Origin: Secundilactobacillus kimchicus JCM 15530
Lineage (GTDB): Bacteria > Bacillota > Bacilli > Lactobacillales > Lactobacillaceae
Assembly (NCBI RefSeq): GCF_001433995.1
Contig: NZ_AZCX01000002.1
Coordinates: 62,001-126,000, forward strand
DNA length: 64,000 nucleotides
Direction of reading: 5' to 3'
Shown: positions 39,700 to 53,540 of the stretch, piece by piece
Layout of the letters: every line of letters begins with the position of its first letter
Numbering within the stretch: the stretch's first letter is position 1
Position numbers and translations under genes: made by a program
The notes under the pieces: model-generated
Told to the model about the DNA's origin: nothing
What the model saw: the letters and a program-made list of their open reading frames with translations, nothing else
The model's database searches: none

Positions 39700-39720
39700 A
39701 ATACCAATCAAACCTTTAAC

Positions 39721-39810
39721 ATTAGTCCTGTGAGGCTAAGAAGGGTCGGTGCATTTTGCGAACAAATTTGTTCACAACCCCTCTGTCCACAGGCGACGGA
39801 GGGGTTTTTG
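39721..39810 (+). promoter_or_regulatory. PyrR-dependent transcription attenuator
   Basis: AGTCCTGTGAGGCT (39724-39737) matches the PyrR RNA consensus ARUCCNGNGAGGYU in full and sits in a hairpin closed by TTAG/CTAA. AACCCCTC (39776-39783) pairs with GAGGGGTT (39799-39806) and runs into T5, the terminator. UMP-bound PyrR should promote termination. Confidence 0.85.
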
Positions 39811-39821
39811 ATTATGGCGAT

Positions 39822-50442: not shown

Positions 50443-50883
50443 ATGGCCACTGTAAATACGGGCCGGTTGCTAAGGCGCGCATCCAATCAGCTAGTTCACC
50501 AGTTTGATCGCTTTGCAGCAACTTACGGGTTAACCAGCATGCAGATGTCGATTATTGATTTTTTAAGTCGTAACAGCGAAAAACAGTTGATTCAGCGCGA
50601 TATTGAACGCGAGTTTAACGTTCAACGTTCAACAATGACGATGATTCTACAACGAATGGAGAAAAAAGCGTTGATTCAGCGGGTTTCTGTGCCCCAAGAT
50701 GCCAGGCAAAAGCAGGTTATTTTAACGGCTAAGGCCACGAATCTGGCTCACGATATTCGGGTATACATGACCCGCCAAAACGCTGAGGTCGAAGCCCGGT
50801 TTGGAGCGAGCCAAATGCAGGCATTTAACCAAATTCTGGACTACTATACGTCATTAACTAATGAGGATTTTACGACCGACTAA
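50443..50883 (+). CDS. MarR-family transcriptional regulator
   Basis: 146 residues, winged helix: LTSMQMSIIDFLSRN, QRDIEREFNVQRSTMTMIL (recognition helix), MEKKALIQRV and the wing DARQKQVILTAKA. AAAGGAGG ribosome site. Its stop overlaps the convergent TVP38 gene by 4 nt; no operon partner on its own strand, so its target is not evident. Confidence 0.9.
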   Translation: MATVNTGRLLRRASNQLVHQFDRFAATYGLTSMQMSIIDFLSRNSEKQLIQRDIEREFNVQRSTMTMILQRMEKKALIQRVSVPQDARQKQVILTAKATNLAHDIRVYMTRQNAEVEARFGASQMQAFNQILDYYTSLTNEDFTTD

Positions 50884-51554
50884 GCCGGGTCAACGTGGTC
50901 GTGATGAATGAATCGAACGGCCCCGAGTAGTAGAACGGCAATAACGCCGACGGTGATAAGCCGGATTCCGTCACCACGAAGTGAAGCGTCACCCCCCAAA
51001 GCATAGAGGGCGGCAGTCGGCAAACTGCCAAGAAAGCATAGGGTAAATCGTGTCGGACCGGATGAAATCAGACGAGAAGCGGCTAGGTTGACGACCATAC
51101 TAGGGACAAAGGGAATGGCATAGCCAAGCACAAGTCCCAGTCGAGGGTGGCGAACCTTTAACAAATCCCGGTATAACCGACTTGTTGAGGGCGGTTGTTG
51201 GCGCCGTTTTTCGAGGAGCGGCAGCAGGCTAGTGACCGAATAGTTTCCTAGGGTGGCCGCTGTCAGATTTAAGGCAAAGCCAGTCCAATGGCCAAAACAG
51301 ATGCCGGAGACAACGGCCAGGATTGAATAGGGGGCTCCCGGGAGCCAAATCATTAACATCAATAAGAGCGTGTAAAGGGCCAAGTCAATTGGCCTTTTAT
51401 TTTGGAAAGCGTTAATTAAAGTTTGCCGATCGGTTGTGACGTCCGTTAGGTCTTGTAGTTCGGCCTTAAACCGCCAGATAATTAAAATCATGATAAGCGT
51501 TGCAGCAATCATCAAAATAGCTGCAAGCCGTTTGTGACAGCGAATAAAAGTCAT
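50880..51554 (-). CDS. TVP38/TMEM64 (VTT domain) membrane protein
   Basis: 224 residues, about five to six helices. VTT-type central region: PGAPYSILAVVSGICFGHWTGFALNLTAATLGNYSVT, with the re-entrant motif near residue 70-105, then GYAIPFVPSMVVNLAAS. DedA/VTT proteins act in lipid movement or membrane homeostasis. GGGGGGG ribosome site. Confidence 0.85.
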   Translation of the reverse strand: MTFIRCHKRLAAILMIAATLIMILIIWRFKAELQDLTDVTTDRQTLINAFQNKRPIDLALYTLLLMLMIWLPGAPYSILAVVSGICFGHWTGFALNLTAATLGNYSVTSLLPLLEKRRQQPPSTSRLYRDLLKVRHPRLGLVLGYAIPFVPSMVVNLAASRLISSGPTRFTLCFLGSLPTAALYALGGDASLRGDGIRLITVGVIAVLLLGAVRFIHHDHVDPA

Positions 51555-51598: not shown

Positions 51599-51771
51599 AA
51601 AAAAACCACCGTCATTGAGGGGGAATGACGGTGGCGAGGAGTGAAGCGTATGAAGTTTGTTTTGAATCGTTGTGGACTTTTAATGTAGGGGGACATTAAA
51701 AGCTCTAAAAGTGAATTTAATTCTGTTTGTTTGGGGAACAAACGTGAGGAGTGAAGCAGGTTTTAAAACCT
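51599..51771 (-). ncRNA. Putative small RNA with repeated anti-Shine-Dalgarno modules
   Basis: On the minus strand, 5' to 3': palindrome AGGTTTTAAAACCT (51758-51771); GCTTCACTCCTC (51746-51757); hairpin GTTTGTT/AACAAAC with loop CCCCA (51725-51743); a small GAATT/AATTC palindrome; a perfect 10-bp hairpin CTTTTAATGT/ACATTAAAAG with loop CCCCCT (51677-51702); the same 12-mer GCTTCACTCCTC (51636-51647); and an 11-bp terminator hairpin with loop CCCCCTC (51606-51634) running into T7. The repeated 12-mer is the complement of GAGGAGTGAAGC, a ribosome-site-like sequence. The 5' end and promoter are not clear. Confidence 0.55.
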
Positions 51772-52049
51772 ATTTGAGTTCAATCATTGAGTGGTTGGAC
51801 TGCGAATAACTTGTCATTTGCAGGACTTCCTTTCGCTTTCTATGGTCCCTACTTTACGTGGTGGAGCTTAATTCAAGCTTAAAAGCGTGTGACTTTTTTG
51901 TGATGATTGGTCAAGGTGAGTGTCGTGAATAATCGTACAATAATTTTGAAACCGGATAATGGGATTAAATCCGAAATACTAGTTTTCGGAAGCGATTACA
52001 ACGGCGCTTTAGCAACCCTTATAAGTAATATTTATGACTACTGTGGTAT
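51772..52049. other. Rest of the gene-free region upstream of fumC
   Basis: No gene is supported. It contains an AGCTT/AAGCT inverted repeat (about 51865-51879), a TCCGAAA/TTTCGGA repeat (about 51971-51990), and a cre-like CGGAAGCGATTACA (51987-52000, 12 of 14). Confidence 0.45.
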
Positions 52050-52157: not shown

Positions 52158-53540
52158 ATGGAAAACTACCGTGTTGAAGAAGATACTTTAGGTCCAGTTA
52201 ACATTCCTATTGATGCTTTATGGGGCGCGCAAACGGAACGGAGTCGGCACAATTTTCCGACCGGTGCCAAAATGCCGTTGGAATTGATTCGGGCGTTGTT
52301 ACAAATTAAAAAAGCAGCGGCTCAAGCGAACAAGGAAGTTGCTGCAATTGCTGGCGAAAAAGCTGATTTAATCGTGAAGGCGATTGACGCATTGCTTGCA
52401 CTGAGTGATGAAGAACTCCGTAAAGACTTCCCGCTGGTGGTTTACCAAACCGGCTCAGGTACGCAAACCAACATGAACGTTAACGAAGTTGTGGCCCACA
52501 TGGCGGCCAAGATTGACGGTTCTATTGAAATATTGCCAAACGACGATGTCAATCACGGCCAAAGTTCGAATGACATCTTCCCAACGGCAATGAATATTAC
52601 CGCTGCGGTTGCTGTTGATAAGCTGGAAGCCGCCGCTCAACATCTGCTTGACGAGTTGCAGGAAAAGCAGGAAAAATACTGGCGAACCGTTAAAATCGGC
52701 CGGACCCACTTGCAAGACGCGACGCCGTTAACCTTTGGTCAAGAGGTTAGTGGTTGGGCCAGCATGGTTGAGCACGATCTTGGTTACTTGAAGACTTTGA
52801 ACGCAACTTTGAGTGAGGTGGCCATGGGCGGGACCGCTGTTGGAACCGGCTTAAATGCTGCGCCACACTTTGCTGACACCATTGCCGAAAAAATGAGTGC
52901 CGTTTATGAACATCCGTTTACTGCTGATTCAAACAAGTTTTATGGGTTGGCTGCGCACTCAGGGTTAAACGTGGTTCACGGTGCCATCAAGACGTTAGCC
53001 GCTGACTTGATGAAGATTGCAAACGATGTGCGGTTCCTTGCGAGCGGGCCGCGAGCGGGTTACGGAGAGCTTAACATTCCAGCTAACGAACCCGGATCTT
53101 CCATCATGCCAGGAAAGGTCAACCCAACCCAAGCTGAAGCCATCACCATGGCTGCGGTACGGGTGATGGGAAACGACGTCGTAGTTGATTTAGCTTCAAG
53201 CCAAGGAAACTTCGAAATGAACGTGTACAAACCCGTTTTAATCAGCGCCTTCCTCGAATCTGCTGAATTGTTGACTGGGACTATGACGGGCTTCGCAGAC
53301 AAGATGATTCACGGCTTGACGGTTAATGCTGAACGGATGGAGGAATTAGTCGATCGATCATTGATGACGGTTACGGCTCTCTCACCTCACATTGGGTACC
53401 ACGACAGCGCCAAAATTGCGCAACAGGCTGAAAAGGATGGCGACACCCTAAAGGAAGCAGCTGTTAGATCGGGCCAAGTGACCGCTGAACAGTTTGACGA
53501 GTGGGTTGTCCCAATTGATATGACCAACATTGACAAGTAA
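52158..53540 (+). CDS. fumC: Fumarate hydratase, class II
   Basis: 460 residues from ATG 52158 (GGAGGG upstream). Interconverts malate and fumarate. Family segments: GSGTQTNMNVNEV (about 94), GQSSNDIFPT (about 132), the active-site loop GSSIMPGKVNPTQ (about 312) and the long helical core. Cytoplasmic. Followed after 14 nt by the fumarate reductase gene, so together they convert malate to succinate. Confidence 0.96.
   Translation: MENYRVEEDTLGPVNIPIDALWGAQTERSRHNFPTGAKMPLELIRALLQIKKAAAQANKEVAAIAGEKADLIVKAIDALLALSDEELRKDFPLVVYQTGSGTQTNMNVNEVVAHMAAKIDGSIEILPNDDVNHGQSSNDIFPTAMNITAAVAVDKLEAAAQHLLDELQEKQEKYWRTVKIGRTHLQDATPLTFGQEVSGWASMVEHDLGYLKTLNATLSEVAMGGTAVGTGLNAAPHFADTIAEKMSAVYEHPFTADSNKFYGLAAHSGLNVVHGAIKTLAADLMKIANDVRFLASGPRAGYGELNIPANEPGSSIMPGKVNPTQAEAITMAAVRVMGNDVVVDLASSQGNFEMNVYKPVLISAFLESAELLTGTMTGFADKMIHGLTVNAERMEELVDRSLMTVTALSPHIGYHDSAKIAQQAEKDGDTLKEAAVRSGQVTAEQFDEWVVPIDMTNIDK

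Follow-up and report, generated by a model that had tools for sequence, protein, structure and literature searches.

A predicted csRNA-like antisense RNA behind a CiaR-type promoter in Secundilactobacillus kimchicus

Small RNAs of the RsaE/RoxS type carry unpaired, C-rich motifs that target ribosome sites, a feature shared with the RNA described here, and the LhrC RNAs of Listeria have C/U-rich binding sites. In streptococcal csRNA genes, as presented in PMC3091779, the box NTTAAG-N5-TTTAAG is followed by a -10 element ten bases further on; among the csRNA predictions given there, 32 have two stem-loops, 16 consist of the terminator only and 13 are more complex. The same 2010 paper describes CiaRH as apparently absent outside streptococci (PMC3091779). 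A 'Cia' orthologue cluster named in 2011 in some Lactobacillaceae, and listed for L. brevis and L. casei, not L. plantarum, is unsupported by the regulator tree (PMC3040137). Our search of the openly licensed literature found no CiaR-dependent small RNA outside streptococci.

Here we describe a locus of Secundilactobacillus kimchicus JCM 15530, a member of a genus of food-associated bacteria, within a 64,000-nt stretch of its genome (the 64-kb window). The locus is flanked by a VTT-domain gene, located downstream on the same strand, and by the divergent gene fumC on its other side (Table 1). We read it as the gene of a csRNA-like antisense RNA with a CiaR-type promoter, which would act by blocking translation initiation, and assign this reading a probability of about 0.8. 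A small RNA of csRNA type with anti-Shine-Dalgarno modules is well supported at the level of sequence. By virtue of its promoter, terminator and anti-initiation sequence it would work like a csRNA; strict membership of the class awaits dependence on the regulator.

Table 1. Features of the locus and its neighbours, in window coordinates.
Feature	Position	Strand	Basis
VTT-domain membrane protein gene, candidate target; Shine-Dalgarno GGGGGGG at 51566-51560	50880..51554	-	Pfam VTT_dom
Predicted small RNA, ~247 nt	51599..51845	-	start inferred from the -10; end = terminator
Terminator: hairpin 51634-51606 with loop CCCCCTC, then T7	51599..51634	-	sequence and fold
Anti-initiation-region module CAT-N8-CTCCTC, includes 12-mer B	51636..51652	-	first bases of 12-mer B predicted paired
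Hairpin 2, loop CCCCCT	51677..51702	-	sequence and fold
Hairpin 1, loop CCCCA	51725..51743	-	sequence and fold; loop C residues unpaired (0.98-1.0)
Anti-Shine-Dalgarno 12-mer A, GCTTCACTCCTC	51746..51757	-	ensemble: mostly unpaired, except first base
Palindrome AGGTTTTAAAACCT, small hairpin	51758..51771	-	sequence and fold
Possible short ORF MTSYSQSNHSMIELK, 15 codons and stop; Shine-Dalgarno AAAGGA at 51833-51828	51770..51817	-	AAAGGA and ATG statistics
-10 hexamer TAAAGT, exactly 10 nt from the box	51851..51856	-	spacing as in the csRNA gene finder (PMC3091779)
CiaR-type response-regulator box TTTAAG-CTTGA-ATTAAG	51867..51883	-	sequence; published consensus NTTAAG-N5-TTTAAG (PMC3091779)
Direct repeat ATCACA-N5-GTCACA, second-class-like box, wrong distance from any -10	51888..51904	-	unique in the 64-kb window
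fumC, divergent neighbour	52158..53540	+	Pfam Lyase_1 and FumaraseC_C

The whole promoter, TTTAAG-N5-ATTAAG-N10-TAAAGT, occupies positions 51883-51851 of the minus strand. It conforms to NTTAAG-N5-WTTAAG, with the G residues of the box kept and the -10 ten nt downstream; the -10 hexamer itself is weak (4/6). By our own terminator rule the terminator stem starts 215 nt past the -10, within the limit of 250 nt used for csRNA genes. A gene-finder scan that combined the published promoter rule with this terminator rule, devised for the present analysis, gave one match in the window, namely the present locus; 60 shuffled windows contained a mean of 0.12 promoter-only matches, with 7 of the 60 having one. 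The sequence-only reading of this DNA had called the promoter unclear and confined the feature to 51599-51771. The elements that it described are indeed there, but the CiaR-type box is now identifiable upstream of that interval on the minus strand, and the predicted RNA is longer, extending to 51845.

The two identical minus-strand 12-mers of that reading, 110 bp apart, were recovered exactly (copy B, also GCTTCACTCCTC, lies at 51647-51636), together with the three hairpins with C-rich loops and the strong terminator ending in T7. The folding z-scores of 51599-51771 and of the entire predicted RNA of ~247 nt are -6.0 and -5.4, respectively, and in each case 0 of 200 shuffles was as stable. In the ensemble prediction the C residues of the loops are unpaired (0.98-1.0), as are the majority of the 12-mer bases. 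Unpaired sequence directed against the Shine-Dalgarno region and start codon, as in csRNAs, is provided by CAT-N8-CTCCTC and the C-rich loops, with the first bases of 12-mer B predicted to be paired; the complement of CAT-N8-CTCCTC, GAGGAG-N8-ATG, is a complete ribosome site including the start codon. Duplication of the 12-mer is by itself only moderately rare, a repeat of at least 12 nt occurring in 14/2000 dinucleotide shuffles of the 247-nt RNA. Three C-loop hairpins occur in 1 of 850 overlapping 300-nt stretches of the window, and a hairpin scan found the sole run of three at this locus. A non-functional terminator region, or hairpins formed by chance, would fit a sequence that is not conserved between species; we nevertheless find this highly improbable, given the coincidence of promoter, terminator and three C-loops in 1 of the 850 stretches and the genus-wide statistics of box and C-loop hairpins given below.

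Conservation was assessed in a genus sample of 15 Secundilactobacillus genomes and a family sample of 397 genomes, both including that of S. kimchicus. Two of the genus genomes are tied to named species by sequence, G003 being identical to S. folii over the stretch fetched and G011 to S. similis. By blastn the locus matched only itself, in its own genome and in 60 genomes (own included). fumC is present in 15/15 genus genomes, and the regions upstream of it in the other 14 are unrelated by inspection and lack CACTCCTC. Outside its own genome, a covariance model of the locus found weak matches alone (best per-genome E 0.0017 in the family sample and 0.15 in the genus). Built from the single sequence, it reached E values up to 1 in 26 of the 397 genomes (own included), mostly in a chance-like manner; two of the matches led to arrays of C-loop RNAs in genus g55. 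Rfam gave no small-RNA family at gathering score in the window, and a permissive scan of the locus yielded three weak matches to unrelated families. A PyrR binding site (RF00515) at 39709-39813 of the plus strand scores above the gathering threshold. The sequence-only reading had proposed a comparison of homologous intergenic regions and had taken hairpins and 12-mers that are lost beside retained flanking genes as evidence against itself. In this respect the outcome is partly against the locus: fumC is kept and no clear sequence relative of the RNA was found in the genomes searched, while the class is kept through its promoter and loop design. Support for the small-RNA reading therefore comes from the class and not from conservation of the locus itself.

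Across the 15 genus genomes, the pattern TTAAG-N6-TTAAG-N10-TANNNT has 56 matches, distributed over 10 genomes, compared with 0 for the reversed control in all 15. Each of the 56 sites was read individually. Behind 17 of them, the present locus included, there are C-loop hairpins; among 838 background stretches taken at the same loci the figure is 44 (Fisher p 2e-8). The other 39 boxes have no C-loop hairpin downstream. The genome of S. kimchicus contains four strict sites with box and -10 (control 0); without the -10, TTAAG-N6-TTAAG shows no strong enrichment there (14 vs 8 in the control). These four sites precede the window RNA, a second C-loop RNA (C7:35269) and two short or secreted-looking proteins. 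Further box sites in the genus lie before DltA-like ligases, acyltransferase-like proteins and short peptides, all named by eye.

The second C-loop RNA, which has the same box, aligns with RNAs of five other genus genomes. This structural alignment supports covariation weakly: of 28 predicted pairs, 6 change on both sides, the covariation term, at +2.7, is unfavourable, and the consensus fold of the six genomes does not include the C-loop hairpin. In a three-genome alignment of another box RNA, both sides change in 5/69 pairs. Rfam found no small-RNA family at gathering score in six box loci, where its sole match was an M-box riboswitch. In S. kimchicus, this magnesium riboswitch (L160:2201-2367) lies ~670 nt past the point where the second C-loop RNA has its promoter.

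Eight proteins of S. kimchicus have an OmpR-type DNA-binding domain. The candidate regulator (C43:3601-4293), whose gene is adjacent to a kinase gene, has the recognition helix VVEVYMSNLRKKI, which is identical to the helix VVEVYVSKVRKKL of streptococcal CiaR (PMC3091779) at 9 of the 13 residues to which the comparison with CiaR is confined; the next best protein reaches 7. Orthologues at E <1e-100 are present in 8/15 genus genomes, all eight of which have boxes. No boxes occur in five of the other seven genomes (G007, G008, G009, G012 and G014). Another, G013, lacks the regulator and has two box matches, neither with a C-loop hairpin behind it, and the last, that of S. similis (G011; L274 / L320), has 15 boxes and an interrupted regulator gene, readable only in separate frames of the record. 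At E up to 1e-50, the CiaR-like regulator has matches in 218 genomes, none of them of genus g55.

In 10/10 Apilactobacillus-named loci and one uncultured Lactobacillus bin (L235-L239, L241-L244, L275, L276) the orthologous regulator gene has a box immediately upstream, which suggests that the Apilactobacillus-type gene may be autoregulated. The strict box was not found around the regulator in Secundilactobacillus loci, S. kimchicus included, or in Lentilactobacillus loci. A different regulator, at C4 (L105/L189), was set aside, its upstream TTAAG-N6-TTAAG lacking a correctly spaced -10 and its helix matching at 6/13 positions.

In the mechanism that we propose, the regulator with the CiaR-like recognition helix (G000:C43:3601-4293) would bind TTTAAG-N5-ATTAAG and switch on a free-standing RNA of ~247 nt, transcribed leftwards from the CiaR-type promoter. 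The RNA would offer several modules complementary to ribosome sites: CUCCUC occurs twice, in one case behind an anti-AUG at the usual distance, and each of three apical loops is rich in C. Pairing of these modules with the Shine-Dalgarno sequences of mRNAs would block translation initiation. Likely first targets would be the VTT-domain gene beside the locus and those mRNAs whose ribosome sites carry GAGGAGTGA, for example those of accC and a NupC-like gene. Of this mechanism, the analysis establishes the sequence, fold, terminator, promoter motif with its statistics across the genus, and the joint occurrence of boxes and regulator; transcription, binding by the regulator, pairing, repression and the targets are inferred.

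We ranked 57 ribosome sites, chosen heuristically within the window, by duplex energies that take no account of accessibility. The site of the VTT gene (GGGGGGGATGA) ranks first, with -20.1 kcal/mol for pairing to the terminator loop, and that of fumC ranks 34th, which leaves the special link to fumC suggested by the sequence-only reading unsupported. An exact complement of the 12-mer occurs in the S. kimchicus genome at the two places of the present locus only. With one mismatch there are 7 matches (5 outside the locus) against 6 for the reversed control, so that the complement is not enriched elsewhere. Two of the one-mismatch matches are ribosome sites, those of accC (NCBIfam) and the NupC-like gene (by eye); their energies, -17.9 and -24.8, belong to sites picked by match and hence are not independent evidence.

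The strongest pairing among the 57 sites belongs to a gene on the same strand whose start codon lies ~45 nt beyond the terminator end, an arrangement that would also suit a leader acting in cis. A transcript from the box promoter would then either end at the terminator or read through into the VTT gene, and the C-rich terminator loop would pair with that gene's own ribosome site, GGGGGGGATGA. We consider such a leader unlikely, since inspection by eye of the other listed box sites, out to 330 nt, showed no VTT-like ORF, CACTCCTC occurs in 0/9 other VTT-like loci of the genus, and a TATACT hexamer between terminator and VTT gene could serve as the gene's own promoter. A search of genome contigs found no relative of the VTT protein.

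Within 51599-51771 there is indeed no credible ORF, as the sequence-only reading stated, but just upstream, at 51817-51770, the same predicted RNA contains an ORF of 15 codons with a good Shine-Dalgarno sequence. Within 170 nt of the -10, 16 of the 56 box transcripts have AAAGGA and then an ATG, compared with 6 of 838 background stretches, which were not matched to gene starts; 13 of the 16 have ORFs below 45 codons, and 4 of the 56 transcripts, the window RNA among them, combine a short ORF with a C-loop hairpin. This raises the possibility of a small mRNA or dual-function RNA whose main product is the 15-residue peptide, the C-rich 3' part having a second function or being a mere untranslated region. 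We think this doubtful, because the unmatched background means that part of the excess merely reflects genes after promoters, and the peptide is very short and, by eye, without resemblance to those of other box transcripts. Part of the Shine-Dalgarno of the peptide is predicted to be paired next to the second anti-ribosome-site module, and peptide synthesis and target pairing could therefore be mutually exclusive.

Among the other box transcripts, five (L176, L288, L293, L294 and L303, the last being the same as L171) encode short hydrophobic peptides of the form MKKxIAVIPALxTVATxxxVTxRxRR, with C-loop hairpins downstream in two of the five (L293, L294). A second peptide type, IKIPPVxLQEDPxxR or a close variant, is found at L173, L298 and L305.

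A second class of C-loop RNAs is marked by the promoter TTCACA-N5-TTCACA-N9-TATANT-N5-CATAG, which at up to 3 mismatches is found in 149 of the 397 family genomes (reversed control in 14) and has 46 matches in Secundilactobacillus (control 10). C-loop RNAs lie behind it both in the arrays of genus g55 and, in Secundilactobacillus, close to purB, where S. kimchicus has its own copy. The tandem arrays comprise about four genes in L051 and L053 (g55), and the purB-adjacent copies of the window's genus are at L087-L101. A permissive Rfam scan of L051 and L053 gave weak unrelated matches, none at gathering score. Among the purB regions, the promoter motif is present in 11/14 of those fetched (G010 left out), with C-loop hairpins scored in 9 of the 11; two of the three without the motif are short stretches (3.0 and 4.5 kb).

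The present RNA could belong to this family-wide class with a diverged promoter: the class likewise has C-rich loops and CTCCTC stretches, and ATCACA-N5-GTCACA (51904-51888) is unique in the window. We regard such membership as very unlikely, as the repeat has no -10 at the class distance, whereas the CiaR-type box has a -10 at the correct spacing.

Read as a csRNA-like RNA behind a CiaR-type promoter, the locus offers a direct and testable case of csRNA-type control outside streptococci, for which the genus supplies several RNA genes and a defined box, along with a candidate regulator. It suggests that CiaR-like signalling control of small RNAs also operates in food lactobacilli, and that in such RNAs the design of promoter and loops persists as similarity in sequence is lost, as a result of which Rfam and blast searches would miss them. 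As a tentative and rather less probable extension, Secundilactobacillus and its relatives may possess a CiaR-type regulon in which fast-evolving C-loop antisense RNAs abound, some of them dual-function, with a 5' peptide and 3' loops directed against ribosome sites.

The RsaE/RoxS RNAs differ from the present RNA in architecture, and membership of that family is not supported, the locus having no match at gathering score in Rfam. LhrC of Listeria, controlled by LisRK, is, like the RNA proposed here, a multicopy RNA under two-component control, and is linked to cell-envelope stress (PMC4132741). Its regulator and promoter element differ from those proposed here as far as is known, and our locus has no Rfam match. 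According to the LhrC paper, no LisR consensus had been identified (PMC4132741). The closest likeness is to the streptococcal csRNAs or Ccn RNAs as described in PMC3091779, with a box of the NTTAAG-N5-TTTAAG type ten nt before the -10, a nearby terminator, and unpaired anti-Shine-Dalgarno and anti-AUG sequence. At a predicted 247 nt, the RNA lies outside the 51-202 nt of the published csRNA predictions, a range that is descriptive and not defining (PMC3091779). Compared with the streptococcal csRNAs, its own peculiarities are the three C-rich apical loops, the possible short ORF and its Secundilactobacillus host.
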